Of a DNA stretch of 34,229 bases, positions 16,527 through 32,361 are shown one piece after another. Origin of the DNA: a virus. The notes under the pieces are model-generated. The model was not told the origin of the DNA and searched no databases. It worked only from the letters and a program-made list of their open reading frames with translations. The position numbers were made by a program, and so were the translations under genes. How positions within the stretch are numbered: position 1 is the first letter of the stretch; the number at the start of each line of letters is the position of its first letter. The DNA lies in the IMG/VR virus record IMGVR_UViG_3300021425_000099, positions 1 to 34,229 of that record; one strand, written 5' to 3'.

Positions 16527-19500
16527 ATGGCAGTTTCAGCGGTCGCAGGTTTAGCAAGTGCAATAGGAGCGGCGGCGGCTGGCCTAGCTTTTTTTACATT
16601 TGAGGCGCTAACAGTTGGCGCGTTTTTTGGTTATTTCGCATTAGGTGCTGGACTATCTGCACTATCTCGCGCTTTAGCACCAACCCCAAAACTAGGGTCG
16701 CAAATGCGCGGCCTTACGCAAACAACTCGCGAACCCGCAGGATCACGCAAATTAGTTTACGGACAGCTACGAGTTGGTGGTCAAGTTGTGTTTATTGCCA
16801 ACTCAGGCACAGATAACGAATACCTGCACCTCGTTATCGTGTTTGCCGCTCATGAAATAGAGTCGTTTGAAGAATTTTGGTTTAACGACAACAAGGTGTA
16901 CGAGAACAATGCTGTCGTTTCTGCGTGGTCAGACTATGTGACGATTGCCAAGTTTGACGGATCGCAAACCACCGCCGACTCAACACTTACGTCCGTTTCT
17001 AATCAGTGGACTAACAACCATATTTTAAATGGCATGGCTTACGCGCACGTCAGACTAAAGTGGGATGCAGATCAATACCCGCAAGGCGTGCCAAACATAA
17101 GCGCAGTCATAAAAGGCAAGAAGGTTTACGATCCGCGAGACAGCAACCAAAGCGCGACAGACGCATCGACGTGGACGTACAGCCAAAACCCTGCGCTGTG
17201 TGTCCGCGACTATTTAGTAGATACCAAATACGGCCTTGGTGAAGACCGCACACTAATCGACAGCACCGCGCTTACTGCGGCGGCTAATCTGTGTGAGGAG
17301 TCAATCAGCTTAGATGGCGGCGGCACTCAAGATCGCTACAGGCTCAACGGTCAAATAGATACTGCAAACCAAATCAAGGACAACATAGAGCAGATGCTGT
17401 CCGCTATGGGCGGCACGATGAGCTACTCAGGCGGTAAGTATTTTCTGCGTGGCGCTGAGTACATTACGCCGACAGTTACATTTGACGAAGCTGACTGCGT
17501 TGCTGATATTCAGCTACAAACCAAGCAGTCGCGTAGGGGCGCGTATAACGGCGTCAAGGGCATTTTTGTTTCAGAGGAGAAAGACTACAAGGTACTCGAC
17601 TATCCTGCTCAGATAAGCTCGACATACGCCACAGAGGACGGCGATCCGATATACCTTGATATGCCTTTGCCGTTTGTTACTAACAACGTGCAGGCACAGC
17701 GCATTGCAAAAATTGCATTACTTAAGTCACGCCAGCAAACCGTTATTTCGATGGTGGTGAACCTTAAAGGGTTGCGCGTTAAAGTAGGCGACACAATTAA
17801 TGTTTCTAACACGCACCTCGGCTATAGCAACAAGGTGTTTGAGGTCATTGATTACTCGCTGGCTATTGCTGACGGCGGCACTCTTGCTGTTAGCCTGACG
17901 TGCATAGAGACAGCTTCTGCAATTTACGACTGGACGACTAGCGACCAAGAGGACTTTTTAAGCGGTGGAACGCTTCCGCTTTACGATGGCCGCACCGTTG
18001 ATAACGTCACGTCGTTACAGCACAGCGTCGTCGGCTTGAAAGGACCAGACGGCAAGCTAATTACTAGCGTCGATTTAACGTGGACTGCGCCAAATGACGC
18101 ATTCGTTGAGTTTTACGTCGTCACCTATGAAAAAGATAGCGACGGCGATGTGTATGAAGTGCAAACACGCAACCCTCGCGTTCGGCTTTCAGAGCTTACA
18201 ATTGGCTCGGCTTATACCTTTACTGTTAAAGCGCAGAACCTAATCGGTGTTAGAAGTAGCGGGACGACCCTTAACGTCGCCAGCCTAGCAGGTGACACCA
18301 CAGCGCCAGCAGTTCCAACTAGCCCGAGTACAACAGGCGGCATTCGTCAGATCACGGTTGAGTGGACTGAAGCAACAGACGAAGATTTGGCGCTCACGCT
18401 TATCTATTACAACGATACCGACAACCTAAGCACGGCGACTAGAAGCAAAACGCGAGGCGAGGAGTTTGTCTATACGCTGGCTGACGGCGAGACTAGCCCA
18501 AAGACCAAATACTTCTGGTTGAGTTCAATCGACTATTCGGGCAACGAATCAGCTAAGACGAGCAGTTTTACGGGCACATCGGTTAGGACAAAAGAGAACG
18601 ACATTGCCGATGGCGAAGTCACTACAGGCAAGATAGAAAACGGCGCTGTCACAGAGGTCAAAATCGAAGACGGCGCAGTCACTGCTGGCAAAATAACTGT
18701 TGGCGAATTGTCTGCTATCACGGCTGACATTGGTGACATCACTGCGGGAACGCTACAAGCCAACACGTCAACACCGATACCCGACGCAAACGACTCTCCC
18801 TCTGGTAGCGAGACAGGCGCGTTCATCGACCTAGACAATGGAAAGTTTGTATTTGGTGACGCTAACAAGCACCTGCTGTATGACGGCTCAACGCTCGTAG
18901 TCAAAGGGGAATTAGAGGCCGATATTCTCGACGTTATTGACGCGACTATTACAGGACAGCTTACAGCTAATGCGATTTCTGCGGGTGCGGTTACAGTCGA
19001 GTCATTGTCTGCTGGTGTGTTTGCTGAGTTCGACGACCGCTACGGCACAAGCGGTGGCTTTTACGTCACAGATACTGACGAGTTTTTCGATGGCAACAGC
19101 ACAAAGTACGTTACGGTCGGAACGGTAGCGCACAGCACAGACGACATCTATTTCGAGTGCCGACTAAATCACTCGTGGAGTTGGCCGCGTAATGACACAG
19201 GCGACAAGCTAAACGCTAACGTCAGCTTTGAGTACAGCACAGACAACAGCACTTGGACGACTGTACCTAGCAGTACGACTCAAGTAGCTACAGCCACAGG
19301 TGTGGTTGCTCAGTACGCAACGCTGTACAGCATTGCAGAAGACATTACCTACACGATGACAGGCAGTGCGCTTACCGCTGGTAACTACTATTTCCGCGTC
19401 AAGATCGTCGCACAGAACAGCACTAACGCTTTTCAGTTGGCCGCGTTTGGTAGTGGTAGTGGTGTCCCGATTGCGTTTGAGGTACAGGAGTCATCGGGGC

Positions 19501-22500
19501 TTTCTGCGGCAGGCGGTAACGCTGACACGCTTGATGGCTTAGACAGCACACAGTTCCTACGCTCTGACACTAACGACACATTCGACGGCAATCTGACCAT
19601 CACGGGCGACCTGATACTGCAAGGCGGTATTGACCAGTACAACGTCACTAACCTCACAGTCGATGACAAGACCATCACAGTTAATGCTGGTAGCACTCAA
19701 GCATTAAGCGACGGCGCTGGCCTTATCGTTGATCGCGGCACTGCGGCAGATGCGTCTATTACGTGGGATGAGACAAACGACGAGTTTGATTTTAGCCATG
19801 ACGTGACCGCACCGAACCTCAGCATTAGCAACTGGAACACTGCTTACACCTACAGCCAAGTCGGGCACTTACCTTTAGCTGGCGGCACTGTTACAGGCGC
19901 AGTCACAGTACAGGATAACGTGACCGCAGACTCAGCCGATATAAATGAAATTTACATAGGCAAAGGCAATCAAAACGCCGATCAAAACGCTAGAAACATA
20001 GGCGCGTCTAGCAGCTATCTGCTACTGCAAAGAGACGCTGACATTCCTATCGAACTTTGGGGTAGCAAGGTCGAATCGCGCTCAACGCATTATTTTGGTT
20101 CGCAGGCTGGTGGTAAATACATAAATACGGCAGGTGCCGCTGTATTAGGTGATGTCACAACTGCTGATATTGACAGTGTAGGGACAGCGAATTTTGGCAA
20201 CAGTGGGTCGGGTGCATACAAACTCAATATACACACCACAGGCAATCAAGACGCTATTGCCATATACGCAACTTCAACTTCAGGAACCAGTGATCAGTCT
20301 GCTATCCGATTCTTTAACGATGGGGGACTTTCAGCACACATCGGTCTAGCTGTTGATGCGGGACGCTTACTGCCAAATACAGCCGCCAACGATTTTGCAA
20401 TAAAAACGTTTGGCAGTTTGCATCTCGGTAACGGCAATGGAACTAATCTATTCACGTTTACCAACACGGGAAACATGAAGGTCGGGAACGACACGGTTTT
20501 AACTAGCAACAAAGCGCTGACCAACATAGCGTCAATAGATATGCCGACTAGCGGTTCGCAAATTATGGTCAACGCCTATTCGACCACATCGCAAGAAGGC
20601 GGCGGCATCTTCTTCCGTGATGGGTTCGACAGTTCAGCCAAGTACAACCTGTCAATCATGGCACGATCTCGTGCAGATGACGGCTCTACAGACGGGTTGA
20701 GCATAAACGGCTATGAAGGTATTGCGTTTAGTACAGGCTCGAATAGCTACAACGAGCGGCTTTTTATAGATTCGAGCGGCAACTTCGACTTCAACGATGG
20801 AGCGATTAGTAACGCTGGAGCTATTACGTCTGAGGGCGCAATAACCGCAGGTGATGGCTCAACGTCGCTTGGATATTACGTTGGTGCTAATCAAGTCATC
20901 AACGGATCAAGAGTCGCTACCTTTGCTCAAGTTATAAGCAGTGGCACGCTGAGCGGTACGTCTTTGTACTTTAACAATAGCCATTCTAAAACTAAGATTC
21001 GTTTGCTTGGCTCTACTGACGGCGCACATAACATTGGCACAGAATCCTATAACAACACCTACGGCCCAAACTCTTGGACAGGTGGCACGATAGGCCATAG
21101 ATTTTACGGTACGCCTACCAGTTTAATAGCGAGACTTGGCACTGGCGGGGCGTCGGGTGATCTCAACAGTGAGTTTTATGGGTCAGTAAAGATAGATCAG
21201 ACTAGCTCATCTCTCATTGATCATCTCGTATTAGAAAATGACAATGCTGGGGGCGCTGGTGGTGCCATTGCCTTTAAACAACTAGGCGGCACGAAAGCCA
21301 AACTTAAATCGTATTTTGGTTCTAATCAGTGGACGTTCGCCATTGACACGGAAGATACCACTAATGCGTTTGAGATTTACGACGACGGCACGGTAAATAT
21401 AAGTGGCGCTTTAGAATCAGGCGGCACTACAATTCTATCCTCAACACGTCGTTTCTATGCTTCTAATGGTACGTCTGTCAAAGCCGCATACTCGTTTGAT
21501 GGGGATTCAGGAACAGGTATTAGCCGCACTGCGGCAGGTCGTATTGACTTCCTATCAAGTGGCGCTATTAAGGCATATATAAAGACAGGCACTAGCAATC
21601 CAATATCGCCGACAATGTATGTCGATGGTCGCACAGAAATCAACGGCGTCGTTACATGGACAGGCGGTAGCTCTACCAATGCGAATACAGCCTACGGTTG
21701 GGGCGATCACTCAACTCAAGGATACCTTACTTCGTCGTCATCTATAGCGGCGACACAACTTACAGGCACAATCAACAACAATCGACTCAGCTCTGATGTG
21801 TTAATTACGGATGGCGGGACATACTCGACAGGTTTTGCCGCTGATCTTGACACGATAACGGGCTTCCGCATTCATCGCGTAACAGGCTTTACAGGCACCG
21901 ATCATCGGGCGTTCACAGGACATCACAATCTAATACAAATACCTAATACGTCTAGCTCTGGGCCGTATGAAGTTCAATTAGCCTTTACGACAGTTTCATC
22001 AGGAACACCTGAATTTAAGTTTAGATCGTCGGGAGTCACATGGTCAGATTGGGTAAAGGTGTTTAATGACGGCTATCACCCGAACGCTGACAAGTGGACA
22101 ACGGCTCGCACTCTATCACTAACAGGAGCGATCACAGGATCGGTAAGCTGGGACGGATCTGCCAACGCCTCACTAGCGACTACGGTTGGAGACTTGGGCA
22201 GTATTACTGTCACAGATTTAACGGTAGACGGCACTACAAACGCAAGCGTCAGGATAGATAGAGCAAGCACGTCTCACCATAACAATTTACTGTATTACAC
22301 CAACGGAAGTTTGTCGTGGCGTATATGGCAATCAGGCGCTGATAACACGCTTGCAATCCGCAACGAAGCGTCTACGACAAACGTCATCACGATGACGAAT
22401 ACGGACACATTGTTTGCAAATAACGTCACCGCCAATGGCTCTTTTGTTACGTCTACAGCATCTACGGCAGTAGGTATTTATGCAGGGTCAACACAGATCC

Positions 22501-25500
22501 TAGAAGGATCTACTAGGAACCTAAAAAATATCGGCACAATCAATTCGGGCAGTGTTACTAGCTCGGGTCATGTAAAGGCCACAAACTTTTTCATCGGAAC
22601 CGTTACTAGTGACCTGATTAATATCCATACAGATAGCTCAAATGGTCAGATAGCAACATACCGCAACAACGCAGGCTATTTTCTTCACCGAACATACGCT
22701 GATTACAATAACGATGGAACTACGGTTGAATTACAACAGCGTGTCGGAAACGATGGCAATTATTCAAGTATCGGCAATTTCACCGCACACGACTTCCATT
22801 TAAGAACAAACAACACAAACCGTATAAGCATCGGCAGTGCTGGGAACGTCAGCATAAGCAACGCGCTGTCTATTGTTAATGGCATAGATTCAAACACAGG
22901 CGGTGCGGGTGCCAATCTTTTCCGCGCGAACACAAGTGATGGTCGAGTGCTTCGACTGAGAGATCGCACGGATAACGGCGGTAACATAATTCAGTTTGAG
23001 CAAAACAATGGATCAGGTATCTGGGAGGTTGTCGGACGCTCAAGTCAGTTTTACGTGTACAAAAACAGTGGCACTGGGGCAGGTTTAAAATGGAATATTG
23101 ATTCTAGTGGCAATCACACCTTTAACGGTGACATGGCGCTAGTCAATCAAGTTACTTTAGGCACCAACCTTTCAACTACGAACGCGGGTCGTCTTAGAGT
23201 AGAGGGCACATTTGCAAATACAGGTGCGGCGTCACACCCACGCATTACCTTTAACGATGACAACTTTGGTATTGGCGCTGGAGGCTGGGCAACAACAGGA
23301 AACAACGACGATCTTTACTTGTGGTCGTATAACGGCGCTGGCAGGAAGATACGTTTCGCGGTAACGACAGACGGCGGAACAGATGTAACAAATGCCGCTT
23401 GGACTACCAACGCAACTATTGATAACGATGGAAACTTTGATTTAGCTAGAGGCGCATTAGAAGTTGGCGGCAACACGGTAATAGCGACGACACGCCGTTT
23501 TTATGCTTCTAACGGTACAGTCGCAAAAGCCGCGTTCTCGTTCGATGGCGAATCCAGCACTGGTATGTACAAGTACGGCACGAATCAGATTGGATTTACT
23601 GCTGGCGGCAGTCTTATGGCTTACGTGCAAAACGTATCAGGCTCTGCCGCTCTGATCGTACAGGGTCAGATCAACGCATCGGGCGGCAACTCTGGTAACT
23701 GGAATACCGCTTACGGCTGGGGTGACCATAGTACCGCTGGCTACCTACAAACGAATGACAACATAACGGTAGGCACCATTTCCTCGGGCGCTATTACCAC
23801 TAGCGCCAACTTCTTGATGACGGGCGGGTACTCTATATACCTAGGCACCACTAGCCGTTTTAGCTCAGACAATAACGGCGGCTTTGGCATTAACTATGGG
23901 ACTACAGGAGGCACCGCAACCGCAAGCCTGTCGATCTACAACAATACCACGGCAACTATTCAGCTAAACCGCAACGGCACCATCTCCTCGGGCGCTATTA
24001 CTAGCAGTGGGGCATTGACGACATCCACTGGCGTCATCATGAATAATGGTGGCGACAAGTATTGGGTGCGTTGGTCGAGCGCGTCAACTACTGGCCTGTA
24101 TTATCGTCAAACACCCGCCCAAAAATTACAGTTTTTGTTTGGCGGCTCCGAGCGTTGGGGTGTTGATGCTAGCGGCAACATGAACGCCTATAACAACATC
24201 ACCGCAGGTGGCTCATTCGTTACTGCTACGTCGTCGAGCGCACTGGGTATATACGCGGGATCGACTCAAGTGTTTGAGGGTTCCACTAGGAACCTTAAGA
24301 ACATAGGCACCATCTCCTCGGGCGCTATCACTAGCAGTGGGCACATAAAAACTACTGGCGGCGATTTTAAGATCGGTGGCGACAGCGTTATCACTAGCAA
24401 TAGAGATGTTTACGCGAGGAGGCTGTTTTACAGCGATTACGCCGACTTCAGCGGAATCCTGTATTTACGCAATACCATAAATGTTCTAAATGCTACTGAC
24501 AACGGCTGGAATACTTTTGCGGCTCGCTCTAATGGCAGATTCAACCTCACTATAGGCTCGCTCTCAAGTAACAGCACAGGGCAATTCGAAAACATAGGTA
24601 TCGGAATCGCGCCAAGCACTCCTGCCATCAAGGTTTACCACACCGATAACTTTGAGGCTGGTGAGTTTATAACGAACGCAGGCGGGTCACTAATTCGCTA
24701 TCGTGACAACACCTCAACAAGCATTGAAATTGGAATACAAGGCGGCGTTCCTGTAATACGTACAGGTAGTCAGGCAAGGCTGACAGTTGATGGCTCTGAC
24801 TTAAAAATTAACAGCGGTGCTTTAAAGATCGCTAACACGTCGGTAATCACCAGTGGTCGTTTCTTGGAGAATGTGACGCTAGAGGCTGGAGCCGCAGGCG
24901 CAAGATTTAAACACAGTGATTGGCACCAATCTACTGACGGTAGAAATCGCTTTTATTTTGCGCTCAATAGCCATACGTACTATCGAACAGGTAACGCTTT
25001 CATTTACCGCAATAACGCCGATGGTGGAGTTGCTACTATAGACGCCGCTGGCAGAATGCGCCTACAAACAAGTTCCGATCAGTTAAGTATTGGCGCTGGC
25101 TTACAAATAGGCAACAACACCTTTACGGGCGCTAACGGCGTTTTTGCGAGCAGTCGTATAGGCGCTATGGTAAACGGCTCGCTTACGAGCTATGTCTACG
25201 CAAGTACGTATAACGATGCAAACTTCCCTGACTACGGTTTTGTATTCATCCACGGGCCAAGCACCTCAAGCTATAACGTGTGGTCTATCAGTCCCGATGG
25301 CCCTGCAAAAGGCAATGCCCTTAACTTTATATACGGCAATGGCGCGACCAACATCCACACGACTGCGCCAAAGGTTGTGTTTGATGGTAGTGGGAACGTC
25401 GATATTAAGGCAGGCGCTCTCCAAGCCTTTAAAGCTGGGTATCAATTGCGCTTGCGCCGTACTGATCTTGTCGATCAGGACTGGCGTTTTTATTCTTGGA

Positions 25501-27128
25501 GTGGCGGATTAAATATCTTCCCCGCCGCAACCTCGGCTGTTTATTTTGGCAGAGATGGCGCGACAACTAACGTCAGCATTTACAACGGCAACCTAGTGAT
25601 GGGAACGGGTGATACCACCATCATTTCGTCTGCCAGAAACGTAGAGAACATTAATCACTTTGGCGTCGCAAATACGACGACTGTTAATCAAAAGCGAGCA
25701 ACATTTACCTACGGGGCCAGCGATTCAAACTTCCAGCTTGCTATAGCAAATGGTAGCGGTAGCACTAGCAATTCTGAGCAGGCTTGGCTTGGCCTCTACT
25801 ACGGATCAAATAAGCGAAGTGGTATTTCGTTTTTACGATCTGGTAATGCTTATGGCGGTGACATGGTGTTCACCACCAGTCAAAACAACACGCGAATGAC
25901 TATCGCGGGTCAGACAGGCAACATTGGAATCGGTGTAACTCCCAATGCGTCATATAAGTTATACGTCGGCGGTTCGATCGCTCAGTCATCAGGAAGCATC
26001 TATTCGTATGGCGATATCGTTATTGGTCAGGGCGGTCTGAAAAGAGGCTCAACAGATTTAATAACGAGCGCTTTGGAATTAAGGAATATCACAAAGGCCA
26101 CAATCGGCTCTCCTTTGTCAGGAACCTTCCCCGACACAAACGCACAGCTAGATATTGCGTCAACAACAGCCCAAACCAACTTTAGCTCTAAAGCGCTGAG
26201 TTACGGCTCTGATCGGGCTTCTATTGTTGTGGATGCGCGGCATGGCTCAACAAAAGACGGGGTGCTCGGCTACGCTGGGCCTATGATGGATTTTCGCGCA
26301 CACAACGCCAGCTATCAGTGGTCTGTTGCTCAAATCATTGGCACGGTTGACCCAGAGAACGGCAGTACTTTCCAAGGCGGCCTTGTATTTTCTACGTCAG
26401 GCGGCGGTACAGCTAATCCTACGGGACGAAGAAATCAAGGTGCCGCACCTACTGCTCGAATGCTTATTGGCGCAGGCGGTAACGTCACGATCCTTACTGG
26501 CGATCTTAAGTTTGGCAACAGCCTAACGAGTGTAATTACCTCAGCCAGAGAAATTCGCAATGTGGAAAACGCGAATATAGGTAACTTGCGCGTAGGATAT
26601 AGCTCTCTAGGTACAACATCTACATATGACAACAGCATAGAATCGACGGGTAGCTATCTTCTTCTGCAACGAAACCAATCTGCACCAATTGAAATTTGGG
26701 GTAGTCGAGCCGAACTGCGTTCAGCGACATATTTCGGTTCGTTGTCTGACGCGCATGGATATGTAGACACGAGCGGCAACGCTACCTTTGAGGGAAATGT
26801 CACAGCGTATGGCTCACCGTCTGACATAAGACTAAAAGAAAACGTCGAGCGTATTGCTGACCCCATTGCGAAAGTTAAGAAGTTGGATGGCGTCACGTTT
26901 AACTACAAGAAAGACGGGGGGCGGTCTACTGGCTTAATTGCACAGCAGTTATTAGAGGTTCTGCCAGAGGTCGTCTATGAGACTGAAGATTTGGCGACAG
27001 GCGAAGAACATTATGCGGTACGATACGGCAACGTAGTCGGCCTGCTAGTTGAGGCAATGAAAGAACAGCAAGATACAATCGAATCACTAACCAAGCGAAT
27101 AGAGGAGCTTGAAAATGGCGATAACTAA
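16527..27128 (+). CDS. Giant gpJ-like central fibre with C-terminal S74 chaperone domain
   Basis: 3533 residues, 31% of the genome. A hydrophobic Ala/Gly-rich N-terminus (about 1-50, gpI-like) leads into a gpJ-type hub domain (about 60-480: GSRKLVYGQLRVGGQ, NPALCVRDYLVDTKYGLGED). Two fibronectin III-like domains (about 493-590, 592-686) and a short GAVT..KI.DGAVTAGKI repeat (690-745) follow. About 750-3420 is a long beta-repeat shaft with duplicated modules. The end is a Peptidase_S74 intramolecular chaperone with SDIRLKE, Ser3432 and Lys3437 as the likely catalytic pair, then a coiled-coil tail. Self-cleavage would release it after trimer folding. It binds the host. Confidence 0.93.
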   Translation: MAVSAVAGLASAIGAAAAGLAFFTFEALTVGAFFGYFALGAGLSALSRALAPTPKLGSQMRGLTQTTREPAGSRKLVYGQLRVGGQVVFIANSGTDNEYLHLVIVFAAHEIESFEEFWFNDNKVYENNAVVSAWSDYVTIAKFDGSQTTADSTLTSVSNQWTNNHILNGMAYAHVRLKWDADQYPQGVPNISAVIKGKKVYDPRDSNQSATDASTWTYSQNPALCVRDYLVDTKYGLGEDRTLIDSTALTAAANLCEESISLDGGGTQDRYRLNGQIDTANQIKDNIEQMLSAMGGTMSYSGGKYFLRGAEYITPTVTFDEADCVADIQLQTKQSRRGAYNGVKGIFVSEEKDYKVLDYPAQISSTYATEDGDPIYLDMPLPFVTNNVQAQRIAKIALLKSRQQTVISMVVNLKGLRVKVGDTINVSNTHLGYSNKVFEVIDYSLAIADGGTLAVSLTCIETASAIYDWTTSDQEDFLSGGTLPLYDGRTVDNVTSLQHSVVGLKGPDGKLITSVDLTWTAPNDAFVEFYVVTYEKDSDGDVYEVQTRNPRVRLSELTIGSAYTFTVKAQNLIGVRSSGTTLNVASLAGDTTAPAVPTSPSTTGGIRQITVEWTEATDEDLALTLIYYNDTDNLSTATRSKTRGEEFVYTLADGETSPKTKYFWLSSIDYSGNESAKTSSFTGTSVRTKENDIADGEVTTGKIENGAVTEVKIEDGAVTAGKITVGELSAITADIGDITAGTLQANTSTPIPDANDSPSGSETGAFIDLDNGKFVFGDANKHLLYDGSTLVVKGELEADILDVIDATITGQLTANAISAGAVTVESLSAGVFAEFDDRYGTSGGFYVTDTDEFFDGNSTKYVTVGTVAHSTDDIYFECRLNHSWSWPRNDTGDKLNANVSFEYSTDNSTWTTVPSSTTQVATATGVVAQYATLYSIAEDITYTMTGSALTAGNYYFRVKIVAQNSTNAFQLAAFGSGSGVPIAFEVQESSGLSAAGGNADTLDGLDSTQFLRSDTNDTFDGNLTITGDLILQGGIDQYNVTNLTVDDKTITVNAGSTQALSDGAGLIVDRGTAADASITWDETNDEFDFSHDVTAPNLSISNWNTAYTYSQVGHLPLAGGTVTGAVTVQDNVTADSADINEIYIGKGNQNADQNARNIGASSSYLLLQRDADIPIELWGSKVESRSTHYFGSQAGGKYINTAGAAVLGDVTTADIDSVGTANFGNSGSGAYKLNIHTTGNQDAIAIYATSTSGTSDQSAIRFFNDGGLSAHIGLAVDAGRLLPNTAANDFAIKTFGSLHLGNGNGTNLFTFTNTGNMKVGNDTVLTSNKALTNIASIDMPTSGSQIMVNAYSTTSQEGGGIFFRDGFDSSAKYNLSIMARSRADDGSTDGLSINGYEGIAFSTGSNSYNERLFIDSSGNFDFNDGAISNAGAITSEGAITAGDGSTSLGYYVGANQVINGSRVATFAQVISSGTLSGTSLYFNNSHSKTKIRLLGSTDGAHNIGTESYNNTYGPNSWTGGTIGHRFYGTPTSLIARLGTGGASGDLNSEFYGSVKIDQTSSSLIDHLVLENDNAGGAGGAIAFKQLGGTKAKLKSYFGSNQWTFAIDTEDTTNAFEIYDDGTVNISGALESGGTTILSSTRRFYASNGTSVKAAYSFDGDSGTGISRTAAGRIDFLSSGAIKAYIKTGTSNPISPTMYVDGRTEINGVVTWTGGSSTNANTAYGWGDHSTQGYLTSSSSIAATQLTGTINNNRLSSDVLITDGGTYSTGFAADLDTITGFRIHRVTGFTGTDHRAFTGHHNLIQIPNTSSSGPYEVQLAFTTVSSGTPEFKFRSSGVTWSDWVKVFNDGYHPNADKWTTARTLSLTGAITGSVSWDGSANASLATTVGDLGSITVTDLTVDGTTNASVRIDRASTSHHNNLLYYTNGSLSWRIWQSGADNTLAIRNEASTTNVITMTNTDTLFANNVTANGSFVTSTASTAVGIYAGSTQILEGSTRNLKNIGTINSGSVTSSGHVKATNFFIGTVTSDLINIHTDSSNGQIATYRNNAGYFLHRTYADYNNDGTTVELQQRVGNDGNYSSIGNFTAHDFHLRTNNTNRISIGSAGNVSISNALSIVNGIDSNTGGAGANLFRANTSDGRVLRLRDRTDNGGNIIQFEQNNGSGIWEVVGRSSQFYVYKNSGTGAGLKWNIDSSGNHTFNGDMALVNQVTLGTNLSTTNAGRLRVEGTFANTGAASHPRITFNDDNFGIGAGGWATTGNNDDLYLWSYNGAGRKIRFAVTTDGGTDVTNAAWTTNATIDNDGNFDLARGALEVGGNTVIATTRRFYASNGTVAKAAFSFDGESSTGMYKYGTNQIGFTAGGSLMAYVQNVSGSAALIVQGQINASGGNSGNWNTAYGWGDHSTAGYLQTNDNITVGTISSGAITTSANFLMTGGYSIYLGTTSRFSSDNNGGFGINYGTTGGTATASLSIYNNTTATIQLNRNGTISSGAITSSGALTTSTGVIMNNGGDKYWVRWSSASTTGLYYRQTPAQKLQFLFGGSERWGVDASGNMNAYNNITAGGSFVTATSSSALGIYAGSTQVFEGSTRNLKNIGTISSGAITSSGHIKTTGGDFKIGGDSVITSNRDVYARRLFYSDYADFSGILYLRNTINVLNATDNGWNTFAARSNGRFNLTIGSLSSNSTGQFENIGIGIAPSTPAIKVYHTDNFEAGEFITNAGGSLIRYRDNTSTSIEIGIQGGVPVIRTGSQARLTVDGSDLKINSGALKIANTSVITSGRFLENVTLEAGAAGARFKHSDWHQSTDGRNRFYFALNSHTYYRTGNAFIYRNNADGGVATIDAAGRMRLQTSSDQLSIGAGLQIGNNTFTGANGVFASSRIGAMVNGSLTSYVYASTYNDANFPDYGFVFIHGPSTSSYNVWSISPDGPAKGNALNFIYGNGATNIHTTAPKVVFDGSGNVDIKAGALQAFKAGYQLRLRRTDLVDQDWRFYSWSGGLNIFPAATSAVYFGRDGATTNVSIYNGNLVMGTGDTTIISSARNVENINHFGVANTTTVNQKRATFTYGASDSNFQLAIANGSGSTSNSEQAWLGLYYGSNKRSGISFLRSGNAYGGDMVFTTSQNNTRMTIAGQTGNIGIGVTPNASYKLYVGGSIAQSSGSIYSYGDIVIGQGGLKRGSTDLITSALELRNITKATIGSPLSGTFPDTNAQLDIASTTAQTNFSSKALSYGSDRASIVVDARHGSTKDGVLGYAGPMMDFRAHNASYQWSVAQIIGTVDPENGSTFQGGLVFSTSGGGTANPTGRRNQGAAPTARMLIGAGGNVTILTGDLKFGNSLTSVITSAREIRNVENANIGNLRVGYSSLGTTSTYDNSIESTGSYLLLQRNQSAPIEIWGSRAELRSATYFGSLSDAHGYVDTSGNATFEGNVTAYGSPSDIRLKENVERIADPIAKVKKLDGVTFNYKKDGGRSTGLIAQQLLEVLPEVVYETEDLATGEEHYAVRYGNVVGLLVEAMKEQQDTIESLTKRIEELENGDN
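23976..24011 (+). repeat. 36-bp direct repeat in fibre gene, copy 1
   Basis: Starts GGCACCATCTCCTCGGGC and ends in ACTAGCAGTGGG; matches 24306-24341 with one mismatch, in the same frame (GTISSGAITSSG). A third, partial copy starts at 23772. Identity at synonymous sites implies recent duplication or gene conversion. Confidence 0.85.
24306..24341 (+). repeat. 36-bp direct repeat in fibre gene, copy 2
   Basis: Second copy, 330 bp (110 codons) after the first, so recombination between the two would delete or add 110 residues in frame. Confidence 0.85.
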
Positions 27129-28236: not shown

Positions 28237-28452
28237 ATGGAAAATCAAAATCAAGTAACTGAGGAGCAGTTTGTTCTAGCGCAACGCATGGAATCACTTG
28301 CTCGACAAAACGCACAACAGGCTTTGCGCATTGCTGATTTAGAGGCACAGATCGCGCTGACACAAGCCAAAGCACAGCAGTCCGAACAACCTCAAGCAGA
28401 GGAAGTCTCCGATGACGACTATGAGGACGTTGTGCCTGACACTGTTAATTAG
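28237..28452 (+). CDS. Short coiled-coil protein
   Basis: 71 residues; about 14-47 form a Gln/Ala/Leu-rich coiled coil (MESLARQNAQQALRIADLEA). The tail is very acidic (EEVSDDDYEDVVPD). AGAGGGG lies five bases before the ATG, and a TACAAT lies upstream in the 47-bp gap. Its C-terminus overlaps the signal peptide region of the next gene. No family recognised; oligomerisation is likely. Confidence 0.65.
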   Translation: MENQNQVTEEQFVLAQRMESLARQNAQQALRIADLEAQIALTQAKAQQSEQPQAEEVSDDDYEDVVPDTVN

Positions 28453-29098
28453 TGTCTCTGTTCCTGCCTTCGGGCAGGATATAGAACCTGCGCCTGAGAT
28501 TGACCCACCGCCGTCATTACCTACTGAAGACGGACCAGAAATGGAAGACGGCATAAGAAACGAAGGCGACTTAAACACTAACAACATCAACTCAAACAAC
28601 GGCAACAGCACGGTCAATAATTCAGGACCGAATGCTGGCTCGCGTATGCCTGCAAATACTGCTGTCAGTCCATCGCTTATGTCTGGCGGTAGCGAGTCGT
28701 GCTTGCAGTCAATGTCAGGTGGCGTGCAATTAGTTGGCTTTGGTGTGTCGTCGGGTAAATACGTGCAGGACATAGAGTGCAACAGACGCGCCTTTGCTCG
28801 CGTCATGGCGGATCTCGGTTTGAAGGTTCCAGCCGTTAGCTTGCTCTGCCAGAACAAAGACGTTTGGCGAGCAATGCTCATGGCGGCGACACCGTGTCCA
28901 GTGGTAAAATACGGAAAGATACTTGTCGGAAAGCGGGCCATGCTTGAGATTAAGAAGCGGCCAAAGCTACTGATACCAGATTACAGTGATGACAGGGAAT
29001 TTTACGACGCCATTCTAGGCATGGGGGTAGAAACAGATGAGGCAGAAACACCTGTTGGCAATCTGTCTGATCGCTATCGGTCCAGCACACGCGAATGA
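28412..29098 (+). CDS. Exported four-cysteine phage protein
   Basis: 228 residues. A Sec signal peptide (MRTLCLTLLISVSVPAFG, about residues 4-21) precedes a Pro/Asp-rich and Asn-rich low-complexity stretch (about 25-75). The folded part has four Cys in SCLQSM, IECNRR, LLCQ and TPCP contexts, enough for two disulfides in the periplasm. Similar proteins occur near lysis genes of other phages and lack a known role. The ATG at 28412 has GAGGA eight bases upstream. It could act on the outer envelope or in superinfection control; this is inference. Confidence 0.75.
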   Translation: MTTMRTLCLTLLISVSVPAFGQDIEPAPEIDPPPSLPTEDGPEMEDGIRNEGDLNTNNINSNNGNSTVNNSGPNAGSRMPANTAVSPSLMSGGSESCLQSMSGGVQLVGFGVSSGKYVQDIECNRRAFARVMADLGLKVPAVSLLCQNKDVWRAMLMAATPCPVVKYGKILVGKRAMLEIKKRPKLLIPDYSDDREFYDAILGMGVETDEAETPVGNLSDRYRSSTRE

Positions 29099-29873
29099 AA
29101 TTGACAACCTAGTCAACGCCTCGCAGGATATACGCGACACCTTCAAGCATGGCATTCAAGTTATAGCAGGAAGTGAAAGCTACGCGTGGCAAGGTTTGTT
29201 GTCACCTGACGGATCTATTGACCAAGGGCTACTTGATAAAGCAAAGCAAGATGCCTACAACGCCGCTGTTCTTGCAGTTAAAAATCAAACCTACACCTAC
29301 GACCCAAACAGTCAGCAATACTTTGAGGATCAAGCATCGAGCGCAATGGACGTTGTGAGCGAAACTATTGATGCATATGTTGAAGCCGCGCAAGTTTTGA
29401 TAGAGGTGGCGACCGTCAACGAGATGGCGCAAGACGCGGCAAATGCTCAAGACGATCGACAGGCGATGGCGCTACAAGACTACATGGCCGCTAACGATGT
29501 CACGCTAGAAGATCAAGAGGTCGATCAATACAACGATGCGCTGGTAGCCGTACATGAGGCGACGCAAGTAGCCGCCGCGTACATGGCTGTAGCTAATGAC
29601 GAGTCGTTGCAAGAAGTGGCAGACGGCATGGCATACGATTTGCGAGTGACGTATCAAGAAGCGGCCAGTGTGTTTTTTGATGCGGCCACACAATCAGTGT
29701 GGATTTCGTTTGACGGTGGCGAAACAATACAGGGCTTAAACCTCGGCAATTACTACGTGTCGGTTGAGGATGTTTTGATCGAGGGCGAACAACAGCCGTT
29801 TTTCACTAGCTCCCCCGAAGGCGGTTGCTGGTTCGAACAAGATCCAGAGGCGTGCTACAACAATGGCGATTGA
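29037..29873 (+). CDS. Second exported protein, helical
   Basis: 278 residues starting with a good signal peptide (MRQKHLLAICLIAIGPAHA, cleavage after the AHA motif). The mature part is acidic, Ala/Gln-rich and mostly helical (about 65-205), with a beta C-terminus containing two Cys (GGCWFEQDPEACYN). It overlaps the previous exported gene by 62 bp. The paired arrangement suggests the two proteins work together in the periplasm or envelope. No family recognised. Confidence 0.7.
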   Translation: MRQKHLLAICLIAIGPAHANEIDNLVNASQDIRDTFKHGIQVIAGSESYAWQGLLSPDGSIDQGLLDKAKQDAYNAAVLAVKNQTYTYDPNSQQYFEDQASSAMDVVSETIDAYVEAAQVLIEVATVNEMAQDAANAQDDRQAMALQDYMAANDVTLEDQEVDQYNDALVAVHEATQVAAAYMAVANDESLQEVADGMAYDLRVTYQEAASVFFDAATQSVWISFDGGETIQGLNLGNYYVSVEDVLIEGEQQPFFTSSPEGGCWFEQDPEACYNNGD

Positions 29874-30396
29874 AGATTTAGAGCTAAACGTCGGCGGCAC
29901 GCAGATCAAGGGCGTGTGGATTGCTATCTTACTGTCGTTTGCGTCAACTATCGGCGGCGGTATTTGGACAGCGTCAGAATTTTTCAGTCGCTTGGAGGCG
30001 CTAGAATCCGCTGTAAGCGACGCTACATCTGGCACGGCAGTCATAGAGGGTAGATTCGAGGACTTGCGTACAGCGCAATCAGAGACGCTACAGGGCTATC
30101 AAGTCAGCATATCTAATATGCAACAGCAGTTAGACGACAACAACATTGCAGACTTGCAGGGCAAGCTGGCAGAGCTATCAACGAACCTGTCTCAAATTAT
30201 GGAGCTACAGCGCGACCTGTTGCCGCTACGTGACAGGGTAGCCGCAGTCGAAAAATCTAATAGCGAGACGGTGCTAGTAGTCAATGGTAAAATAGAGTCA
30301 TTAAGTAACGTGGCCGACAGGATGAATCGCACGTCGAGAGAAATTGACGATTTGTGGTTGGCTATGGACGAACTTGCAAACCCATTAGGACGATGA
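29863..30396 (+). CDS. Membrane-anchored coiled-coil protein
   Basis: 177 residues: a short N-terminus (MAIEDLELNVGGTQIKG), one transmembrane helix (about 17-37, IAILLSFASTIGGGIW) and a long coiled coil (about 38-170). The topology would put the coil in the periplasm, like an i-spanin, though it is larger and lies before the endolysin. The N-terminal GGTQIKGVWIA motif recurs in lysis-region proteins of aquatic phages. The start overlaps the previous stop by 11 bp. Confidence 0.65.
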   Translation: MAIEDLELNVGGTQIKGVWIAILLSFASTIGGGIWTASEFFSRLEALESAVSDATSGTAVIEGRFEDLRTAQSETLQGYQVSISNMQQQLDDNNIADLQGKLAELSTNLSQIMELQRDLLPLRDRVAAVEKSNSETVLVVNGKIESLSNVADRMNRTSREIDDLWLAMDELANPLGR

Positions 30397-30397
30397 C

Positions 30398-30592
30398 ATG
30401 GAAATCAACGAGGCACTCTTGAAACTTGAAGCGCATGAGCGCGAGTGCCTGTTGCGGTACGAAAGCATCCAGCGGCAACTAGACGAACACAACAAGCGAT
30501 TTGACAAGCTAGACGCCGCACTAAATCGTCACCTCATCATCATGGTGTCTATGGTTCCTGTAGTCATCGGATTTGTGGAGTACCTGCGCTAA
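30398..30592 (+). CDS. Tail-anchored small membrane protein (XhlA-like)
   Basis: 64 residues: an amphipathic coiled coil (about 6-44, ALLKLEAHERECLLRYESIQ...FDKLDAALNRH) and a C-terminal transmembrane helix (about 46-61). The order, coil then C-terminal TM, is that of XhlA-type holin helpers. It begins two bases after the preceding stop. In a lysis region with a classical holin nearby, a helper or antiholin role is plausible. Confidence 0.6.
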   Translation: MEINEALLKLEAHERECLLRYESIQRQLDEHNKRFDKLDAALNRHLIIMVSMVPVVIGFVEYLR

Positions 30593-31311
30593 TGTATCAA
30601 TTTCACACTGACCATCCGACTCCTTATGTCTACCTTGATATTGCGCGTGGCGCTATTTCCAACTCCAAGCTGATCCACAAGTTTGGCGCTAACTTCGACA
30701 TTGACCAAGCCGATGACCCTGAAAGCGTATGGACTGGCGGCGGTCTGTATCCTTGGGCGTCACTTTCTAGCGCCCAAACCATTTATTGCGTATCGACTAG
30801 CGCGAGCGACACCACGACGCTAACGCTTGAGGGTCTTGACGCTAACTACGACGAGATCACTGAGACAGTCACGTTGACAGGCTTAACCGCAGTCACCACG
30901 ACTAACCAATTCCTGCGCGTTTTCCGCATGACCTACGACGCAACAAACGTGGGTGACATCGAGGCACGCGTTACGAGCGCGTCAGGGACGATTGTGGCGC
31001 AGATAGCGGCAGGGTATGCACAGACACTCATGGCGGTCTACACGATCCCTAGAGGCTTTACAGGCTATCTAGTGTCGCTTGATGCAACTATCGACGGGAC
31101 GAAGACTTGCCAGATGCTCATGTACCACCGACTGGCAGGCAAGCCGTTTAGAATTGCCCATATCGCAGAGTCAGATGGTCACTACCGCTACGACTTTATC
31201 GCACCCCTAACAGTGCCTGAGAAAACCGACATCGACATTCGCGTCAACGAGGTCAGCGGCAACGACGCACGAGTTACTGCAAACTTTGACATCGTACTAA
31301 TCAAGGACTAA
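30592..31311 (+). CDS. Beta-rich virion-type protein
   Basis: 239 residues. The pattern VWTGGGLYPWASLSSAQTIY, TTTLTLEGLDANYDEITETV, TTNQFLRVFRM, YTIPRGFTGYLVSLDATIDG and LTVPEKTDIDIRVNE is widespread in aquatic phages, where such proteins are annotated as structural or tail-associated. It is beta-sandwich-like with no signal peptide or metal site. Its place between membrane proteins and the holin is odd for a virion protein. Stop-start overlap (TAATG) with the previous gene. Confidence 0.7.
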   Translation: MYQFHTDHPTPYVYLDIARGAISNSKLIHKFGANFDIDQADDPESVWTGGGLYPWASLSSAQTIYCVSTSASDTTTLTLEGLDANYDEITETVTLTGLTAVTTTNQFLRVFRMTYDATNVGDIEARVTSASGTIVAQIAAGYAQTLMAVYTIPRGFTGYLVSLDATIDGTKTCQMLMYHRLAGKPFRIAHIAESDGHYRYDFIAPLTVPEKTDIDIRVNEVSGNDARVTANFDIVLIKD

Positions 31312-31314
31312 ACC

Positions 31315-31713
31315 ATGTGGCAATCGCTAGTTGGGCCAGTTGCTGGACTGCTGGACAAGTTTGTTGAGGATAAAGACCAGAAAGCAAAGCTCGCGCACGA
31401 GATCAGCACGATGGCTGAAAAGCACGCGCAGGAGCTTGCCAAAGCACAGCTAGAGGTCAACAAGGTAGAGGCGGCACACAAGTCGCTATTCGTATCGGGC
31501 TGGCGTCCTGCTGTAGGCTGGTGCTGTGTATTGGGCATGACTGGCAACTTTATGGTCATACCCTTTACTAACTTTGTACTCGCACTGCTGGCGATAGATG
31601 TGACCATCCCACTGATCGACTTAGAGACAATGATGCCCGTCCTTATGGGTATGCTAGGCTTAGGCGCTATGCGAAGCTACGAAAAGACCAAAGGCGTATC
31701 GAGAGAAAAATGA
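31315..31713 (+). CDS. Three-TM holin
   Basis: 132 residues matching the 'holin of 3TMs, for gene-transfer release' family: an N-terminal amphipathic helix (AKLAHEISTMAEKHAQELAK onward), then SLFVSGWRPAVGWCCVLGMT leading into the first membrane helix, a second around 80-97 and a third around 106-121 (MMPVLMGMLGLGAMRSYEK). The SGWRPAVGW motif is diagnostic. It forms lesions in the inner membrane that release the endolysin encoded next (ATGA overlap). Confidence 0.88.
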   Translation: MWQSLVGPVAGLLDKFVEDKDQKAKLAHEISTMAEKHAQELAKAQLEVNKVEAAHKSLFVSGWRPAVGWCCVLGMTGNFMVIPFTNFVLALLAIDVTIPLIDLETMMPVLMGMLGLGAMRSYEKTKGVSREK

Positions 31714-32060
31714 GCTACAAGTATTTTCACGAGTCAGAGTTTCGCTGTCGAGAGACTGGCGAAAATCGAATGAAGCCAGAATTCATAACTATGCTTGACG
31801 AGCTACGTGAGCGATGCGGGTTCAGCTTTACGGTGACGAGCGGCTTTAGATCGGTTGAGCATACGGCAGAGCGTAGCAAGACCAAAGGCGGAACACACAC
31901 GCAGGGCATCGCGGCTGACATTGCTGTGGCTAACGGCGAGCAGAGAATGAAGATCGTGCGAGAAGCCCTAGACATGGGCTTTGGTGGGATTGGCGTGGCT
32001 CGCACCTTCGTCCATGTCGATATGCGAACGACCACGCCAGTGATGTGGACCTACGGCTAG
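31710..32060 (+). CDS. Endolysin, M15-family peptidase
   Basis: 116 residues. The Peptidase_M15_3 pattern is complete: FRCRETGENRMKPEFITMLD, SGFRSVEH, the zinc site HTQGIAAD (H63, D70) and FVHVDMR (H102, D104). It cleaves peptide cross-links of peptidoglycan (D-Ala-D-Ala carboxypeptidase or L-Ala-D-Glu type). There is no signal peptide, so it needs the holin for release. Single-domain and short, as usual for phages of Gram-negative hosts. Confidence 0.92.
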   Translation: MSYKYFHESEFRCRETGENRMKPEFITMLDELRERCGFSFTVTSGFRSVEHTAERSKTKGGTHTQGIAADIAVANGEQRMKIVREALDMGFGGIGVARTFVHVDMRTTTPVMWTYG

Positions 32061-32076
32061 GGCCGCTTACGCGGCC
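32061..32076. terminator. Hairpin between convergent genes
   Basis: GGCCGC-TTAC-GCGGCC is a perfect 6-bp stem with a 4-nt loop, directly after the endolysin stop and overlapping the stop of the leftward gene. Neither strand has a T-tract. It may slow polymerase from both sides or protect the 3' ends of both mRNAs. Confidence 0.5.
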
Positions 32077-32303
32077 ATCTTGACGTACTGGTGTACGCCG
32101 TTCTTTTTCTCAACCGCCATAAAGCGGCATCGACCTGAATCTAAATAAGCCTTGGCTAAATCTACAGCGTCAGCCTTGCGGTGAAAATACTCTGACTCAC
32201 CAAGGCAGTCGCCTTCCTCGTTTTTGGTTGTGACCATCCAAGTGTTCCAACCTTCTTGATCGCAGTACCAAACCTCAGTGATAAACCAGCTATCTATGTA
32301 CAT
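32067..32303 (-). CDS. Lone leftward gene, DUF2188-like small protein
   Basis: 78 residues from the ATG at 32303, chosen because GAGGAG lies eight bases upstream (an ATG at 32309 would be only two bases away). The sequence (WFITEVWYCDQEGWNTWMVT, then SEYFHRKADAVDLAKAYLDS and VEKKNGVHQYV) has the strand-helix-strand pattern of DUF2188-like small proteins. It is the only gene on this strand and is divergent from the early operon across 151 bp. No HTH is seen, so it is not an obvious repressor. Confidence 0.65.
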   Translation of the reverse strand: MYIDSWFITEVWYCDQEGWNTWMVTTKNEEGDCLGESEYFHRKADAVDLAKAYLDSGRCRFMAVEKKNGVHQYVKMAA

Positions 32304-32332
32304 TGTCATCTCTCCTCTCAGTTGACAAAAAC

Positions 32333-32361
32333 ATCTTTGCATTTCTGCGAGATCACGTCAA
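32333..32361 (-). promoter_or_regulatory. Candidate promoter for leftward gene
   Basis: On the minus strand TTGACG (32361-32356) is followed after 17 bp by AAAGAT (32338-32333), a poor -10. Transcription would start about 20 bases before the GAGGAG of the leftward gene. Confidence 0.35.

Follow-up and report, generated by a model that had tools for sequence, protein, structure and literature searches.

A conserved three-gene module of ocean phages, usually located beside lysis genes, that may encode a spanin-like envelope complex

Few marine phages are as abundant as those of SAR11 and Roseobacter, and the means by which they break the outer membrane are largely unannotated. In two-component spanins, the i-spanin has an N-terminal membrane anchor and a periplasmic coiled coil and the o-spanin is an outer-membrane lipoprotein; unimolecular spanins combine an N-terminal lipobox and a C-terminal membrane segment in one protein. 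The relevant passages of a survey of 677 phages report that no spanin was found in 91, and that o-spanins are lipoproteins in which up to four cysteines are possible (PMC6139136). The three genes described here, designated A, B, and C, are similar to two-component spanins (lambda Rz/Rz1 and T4 PseT.3/PseT.2) in that a putative inner-membrane coiled coil is combined with a predicted exported cysteine protein, the genes overlap, and a holin and endolysin are frequently nearby. In contrast, A and B of the genome examined here are not lipoproteins, the module has two putatively exported proteins rather than one, and C resembles Rz-like PHROGs only weakly.

The DNA analyzed (hereafter, the window) is the 34,229-base virus record IMGVR_UViG_3300021425_000099, which may be incomplete but contains terminase, portal, capsid, and tape-measure genes. 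A 10.6-kb fibre gene (16527-27128; 3,533 aa), the C-terminal end of which we take to resemble an S74-type intramolecular chaperone, is followed by four small ORFs, A, B, C, D, E, a GTA-type holin, and an M15 endolysin, and from A through the endolysin all neighbours overlap or are a few bases apart. A (28412-29098, plus strand as are all genes from here to the endolysin; 228 aa) has a predicted signal peptide, an Asn/Ser-rich stretch, and a four-Cys C-terminal core. B (29037-29873; 278 aa) is a putative exported, mostly helical protein without known family, C (29863-30396; 177 aa) has an N-terminal membrane segment, a coiled coil, and a C-terminal NPL motif, and D (30398-30592; 64 aa) is a small coiled coil with a C-terminal membrane anchor. 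These four ORFs lie exactly where the initial annotation had placed them, and its description of two signal-peptide proteins overlapping by 62 bp (29037-29098), followed by an N-anchored and a tail-anchored coiled coil, was borne out. It had located all of them before the holin (31315-31713; GTA_holin_3TM, PF11351 at 6.9e-20, phrog_3427); this is true of A to D, although a fifth gene that it did not name, E (30592-31311; 239 aa), lies between D and the holin. E matches phrog_8198 (8.5e-50), relatives of which occur in 51 phage records, mostly of cyanophages and Vibrio phages, and it is probably virion-related and outside the module. The endolysin is an M15 peptidase (31710-32060; PF08291 at 1.8e-10, phrog_894), and directly after it a 91-aa minus-strand ORF (32067-32342) runs opposite to the direction of its neighbours. 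Directly 5' of A is a small soluble coiled coil (28237-28452), the putative counterpart of a coiled-coil gene cluster (cluster 28) found at position -1 of A in 14 of 15 close-relative loci.

The A-B-C module is real and widespread, recurring in hundreds of ocean phages and usually beside lysis genes, and it is without a described function in Pfam, PHROGs, PADLOC, the PDB, or the literature searched. Among viral contigs, A is encoded by at least 593 of 600 candidate stretches and B by at least 301 of 599, and 80 of each were used. In a tblastn search of 50,697 phage records, A was found in 11 (Roseobacter phages CRP-207 and CRP-810; Pelagibacter phages HTVC023P, HTVC202P, HTVC033P, HTVC115P, Mosig, and Baldr; and three uncultured phages), and B in three of those 11. 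Contigs of cellular genomes contributed one locus at most, L281, on a 5.8-kb contig of an Opitutales MAG, which is probably a phage contig binned into that MAG. The 173 sources compared, comprising 172 loci (one of which, L012, is a copy of the window) and the window itself, include 172 with A, 117 with B, and 163 with C. B directly follows A in all 116 loci having both, and the second gene after A is C in 152 of the 161 loci that could be scored. Only one of the 80 loci fetched with B alone is missing A, and that locus is cut inside B. The genes surrounding A-B-C vary widely between loci. Relative to four relatives, all three genes are under purifying selection (dN 0.09-0.24; pS 0.63-0.80); a fifth, more distant relative was saturated. 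Passages of the CRP-207 and CRP-810 papers give no role for the module genes, and no virion proteome of an A-bearing phage was found in the literature search. A pelagiphage transcriptome study, as far as its consulted sections describe, used HTVC027P, which is without A (PMC12753301).

The initial annotation had suggested that all four proteins together could form an envelope complex. There is good support for A-B-C being a conserved unit, to which D does not belong: D-like genes from 31 loci make up one cluster (cluster 7) and occupy position +3 in 21 of these, and most relatives are without D, which is thus accessory and outside the conserved core. D has the C-terminal segment of a unimolecular spanin but not the lipobox, and is therefore not one by that definition. 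A relative of D weakly matches the 'hemolysin' PHROGs 1193 and 937.

Protein A starts with a signal peptide, continues with a region rich in Asn, Thr, and Ser whose length varies greatly, and has a core in which four cysteines (C97, C123, C146, and C162) are invariant across 49 aligned sequences. Its AlphaFold model has a confident core at approximately residues 121-200; residues 98-119 are modelled with less certainty as a beta hairpin, along which the alternation of hydrophobic with small or polar residues is incomplete. A has no match in Pfam, and its sole family match in Pfam and PHROGs is phrog_20531 (8.3e-13; profile positions 163-274 of 314), a family without assigned function to which it can be assigned by sequence. 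Neither A nor B matched the PDB at E 0.001 when their AlphaFold models were compared, and the best Z scores of a second structural search were 2.7 and 7.5, respectively, the latter being typical of any helical bundle. Nine matches of A to BFVD at E 0.001 are all uncharacterised or unnamed phage proteins, and sequence profiles compared with solved structures gave nothing at E 0.001 in a listing to E 1. A of CRP-810 carries the GenBank label 'OmpA family protein'.

B has no significant match in Pfam or PHROGs, and its AlphaFold model is helical (mean pLDDT 86.2). A and B overlap in all 115 scorable relatives, with lengths that are upper bounds because they were measured from the most upstream start; in the window, the 62 bp encode both the conserved SLSxRFR-like C-terminal tail of A and the signal peptide of B, in different frames. 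In SAR11-type phages, B is replaced by a larger, presumably exported protein, B'. Loci that are without B mostly have B' at its position, and some are cut or unresolved by ORF choice. Of the 30 proteins aligned for B', a single one has a CBM_4_9 match; two B-type proteins (L017 and L021) are also part of this alignment.

A crude signal-peptide rule, applied with eight A and one B excluded for their open 5' ends, was passed by 154 of 163 A proteins and all 115 B proteins, as compared with 291 of the 1,309 remaining genes of 100 aa or more in these loci. Because these rates are far above those of other genes, the export pattern of A and B is not attributable to chance. The same N termini bear on whether the proteins are virion components, that is, late structural proteins in which the N-terminal hydrophobic segments are not export signals. 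This would be consistent with the placement of the genes, which have the fibre gene on one side and E on the other in the window and structural genes close by in several relatives. Nevertheless, the near-universal signal-peptide-like N termini, the conserved cysteines, and the unrelated genomic surroundings make it very improbable.

The Asn/Thr/Ser-rich region of A raises another alternative. In locus L079 (L079:5589-6965), A reaches 458 aa through Asn/Thr/Ser repeats, and in L045 (L045:1969-3084) it has a similar repeat extension; the NNNNVNSGTMT-like sequence of these repeats is suggestive of a beta-solenoid or amyloid-like region. Pelagiphages are known to carry curli (T8SS) operons, for which the sections consulted list CsgG, CsgF, FecR, and a kinase (PMC9599517, PMC7029224), and the module is similar to these in encoding putatively exported Asn-rich proteins in SAR11 phages. 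A could be a secreted curli-like or beta-solenoid fibre, with B' as its sugar-binding head and C as its inner-membrane base, that causes infected cells to stick. However, A of the window has a short Asn-rich stretch only, and A of L009 is almost wholly without repeats. Additionally, no CsgG- or CsgF-like partner was present in the Pfam and PHROG matches of the ten module-region proteins of the window, and neither FecR nor the kinase was seen in the module. A secreted adhesin is considered quite unlikely.

Protein C of the window matches only generic coiled-coil models in Pfam and PHROGs. The NPL motif is present in at least 90% of 70 aligned C sequences, and 127 of 162 end in NPL plus up to four residues. 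The N-terminal membrane segment passes the rule applied in 93 of 162, and its topology is weakly N-in (more Lys/Arg before than after the segment in 48 of 133, equal numbers in 59, and fewer in 26). Nine of 70 C members match the Rz-like phrog_739 with a best value of 7e-5, although any coiled coil might do so. PHROG matches of C members to 80 families, SbcC-like first, were regarded as coiled-coil noise and not used for membership, and PADLOC matches were rejected as coiled-coil matches to SMC-like proteins. GenBank labels C of CRP-207 (L001:3292-3873) and CRP-810 (L002:7210-7632) as lysozyme; nothing in the family searches points to a lysozyme among C proteins.

The missing lipobox means that A-B-C does not fit the definition of a spanin. 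When both strands of the window were scanned for lipoboxes, one match only was found, antisense inside other genes, and none in A or B; at this sensitivity, the result agrees with the earlier remark that no classical spanin pair is otherwise visible. PF03245 (Rz) was not over cut-off in any of 45 whole records, although spanins are too diverse for this to carry much weight. A lipobox is found only in a relative of A that is absent from the window. A small ORF with the cysteine pattern of A immediately precedes A in 59 loci, and 25 of 37 distinct versions of it pass the lipobox rule. Profile comparison of this A-like lipoprotein with the A core gave 97.4% (E 9e-12, 41 columns), although the regular expression defining the 59 was written after the first ones had been seen, and the 97% homology is thus biased towards the pattern. 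Two checks are independent of the pattern, namely the weak matches of two of the lipoproteins to phrog_20531 (0.006 and 0.007) and an earlier lipobox scan. The lipoprotein is without the hairpin that A has between its first two cysteines.

For 12 of the 37 distinct lipoproteins, the gene that ends where the lipoprotein starts encodes a membrane segment, although two of these are doubtful (the segment is C-terminal in L128 and in an upstream extension in L152). These phages may therefore already have a conventional spanin pair, to which A-B-C would be an addition. As only 12 of 37 have such a gene, the lipoprotein and an upstream membrane coiled coil were rejected as a spanin pair present everywhere. 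For instance, the gene preceding the CRP-207 lipoprotein has no membrane segment, and thus C is the only membrane coiled coil visible beside it.

With respect to location, the module does lie in the lysis cassette, as spanin genes do: in the window, the distance from C to the holin start is 0.9 kb and that to the endolysin start 1.3 kb. Among 61 dereplicated loci, 39 show no endolysin, and in 20 of the 22 that do it is within 2 kb, where 11.2 would be expected if positions were uniform (P 2e-5, which is optimistic because the loci share ancestry). The endolysin seeds for that count came partly from the same loci; whole records were searched with Pfam instead. Of 45 such records, 19 have an endolysin encoded by a small ORF, at a distance from the module of up to 3 kb in 14 and of 11-24 kb in five (HTVC202P, Baldr, AP013540, HTVC115P, and G015), and none was found in 26. 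This tally was made by hand from coordinates; it includes four GH19 matches below the curated cut-off (G005, G015, G022, and G027) and leaves out matches inside ORFs of more than 600 aa (W01, G029, and the M15 match of W03) and one weak partial match approximately 0.5 kb from A (G031). A GTA-type holin was over cut-off in four of the 45 records, near the module in three and approximately 23 kb away in CRP-810.

Comparison of two pelagiphages suggests that the module can be exchanged for another set of genes. The genes flanking A-B'-gp47-C in HTVC023P are gp44, which carries a PurM annotation, and gp49, the M15 endolysin. In HTVC027P, gp11 and gp17, relatives of gp44 and gp49, instead flank gp12 to gp16, of which gp14 is predicted to be an exported four-Cys protein and gp13 and gp15 to be coiled coils with N-terminal membrane segments. 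The block from the PurM-like gene to the endolysin seems to move as a unit, as it is elsewhere in the HTVC027P genome than in HTVC023P. The gp13-gp14-gp15 trio (HTVC027P and Skadi phages) thus resembles A-B-C in the kind of flanking gene and in combining an exported four-Cys protein with membrane coiled coils, but B is absent and mature gp14 is not detectably related to A. Despite the similar cysteine layout, gp14 was rejected as a diverged A homologue on the basis of profile comparison; another such comparison aligned only the leaders and the part immediately following.

In searches with positive controls, A was present in none of 24 gp14 records and full-length gp14 in none of 45 A records. 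Two partial gp14 matches are the A genes of HTVC202P and Baldr, which start with the gp14 leader, a feature that the trio and the module thus have in common in these two phages. Their DNA is identical to the gp14 5' end at 97 of 135 and 71 of 86 aligned bases, respectively, and then diverges, and the leader alignments score 36 and 43.5 against shuffled maxima of 17 and 21. Across 281 loci, the leader pattern occurs in 71 gp14 and four A rows (two phages, two overlapping loci each) and in no other gene. The simplest account of these sequences is that recombination exchanged the mature proteins behind a common leader, an indication that they fill a single functional slot. HTVC027P has this slot next to its endolysin; HTVC202P and Baldr do not.

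The exchange also bears on superinfection exclusion, one of the roles offered by the initial annotation, in which A together with B or B' would arrive at the cell surface late in infection and hide or modify the receptor, keeping progeny and competing phages from adsorbing to dying cells. Both proteins pass the signal-peptide rule, and the middle gene is variable (B, a CBM-like B', or a B' that appears NIDO-like by eye), as would be expected if it tracked host surface chemistry. Additionally, the module is accessory within one phage group, being present in HTVC023P and not in HTVC027P. However, the usual position beside endolysin and holin and the exchange with another set at the lysis locus speak against it, and no similarity to a named exclusion protein was found in Pfam, PHROGs, or PADLOC. 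Surface remodelling of this kind is regarded as unlikely. In contrast, the lysis or outer-membrane disruption that had also been offered gains support from endolysin proximity, the HTVC023P/HTVC027P exchange, and the A-like lipoprotein.

Overall, the best reading is that the complex is spanin-like while not being a spanin by the defining features, and we give about an even chance to A, B, and C being late proteins of an envelope-spanning complex that helps the lysis genes open the outer membrane. C would have its anchor in the inner membrane and, probably, its coiled coil in the periplasm, and its conserved C-terminal NPL tail may dock partners. A and B would be exported by Sec, and the disulphide-capable four-Cys core of A would be placed in the periplasm or at the outer membrane, where the paralogous lipoprotein of sister phages would be tethered. 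The holin and endolysin would first open the inner membrane and cell wall, after which a rearrangement of the complex would break the outer membrane. The reading frames, signal-peptide-like N termini, synteny, locus exchange, and lipoprotein paralogy are read from the sequences themselves; export, late expression, the location of the mature proteins, complex formation, and a mechanical step at the outer membrane are what this model would add.

The lysis-complex model is favoured by the order A-B/B'-C, the closeness of the endolysin, the HTVC023P/HTVC027P exchange, the mutual exclusion of A and gp14, the gp14 leader on A, and the A-like lipoprotein. Against it are the endolysins 11-24 kb away in five of 19 records and the distant CRP-810 holin, the absence of a lipobox in A and B of the window, the conventional spanin pair that some relatives may already have, the only weakly N-in topology of C, and the lack of detectable homology between the mature parts of gp14 and A. 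Additionally, B' has N-terminal domains that resemble binding domains, a feature not expected of a protein acting in lysis. A bolder and rather doubtful extension is that A-B-C constitutes a third route of outer-membrane breach in Gram-negative hosts, independent of two-component and unimolecular spanins. The hairpin of A (98-119) could then insert in the outer membrane, with the inner-membrane coiled coil of C driving A via an exchangeable exported linker, and ocean phages of SAR11 and Roseobacter would swap A-B-C for gp13-gp14-gp15 at the same slot. If the module is the answer to outer-membrane breakage for many such phages, then three gene families are named for testing in culturable phages; if it instead serves exclusion or adhesion, it still represents widespread envelope remodelling of infected marine cells.

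The gp13-gp14-gp15 genes are themselves a second undescribed trio, present in many pelagiphage contigs and often near an M15 endolysin (L197:8172-10936, which is HTVC027P; L279; and L280). Relatives of gp14 were found in 11 phage records and in 296 of 304 candidate viral stretches, 80 of which were used. In these 80 loci, gp13 adjoins gp14 in all 73 with enough upstream sequence and gp15 adjoins it in 62 of 63. An endolysin lies within 2 kb of gp14 in 30 of the 52 loci with enough downstream sequence, with none in 22 and none farther away.
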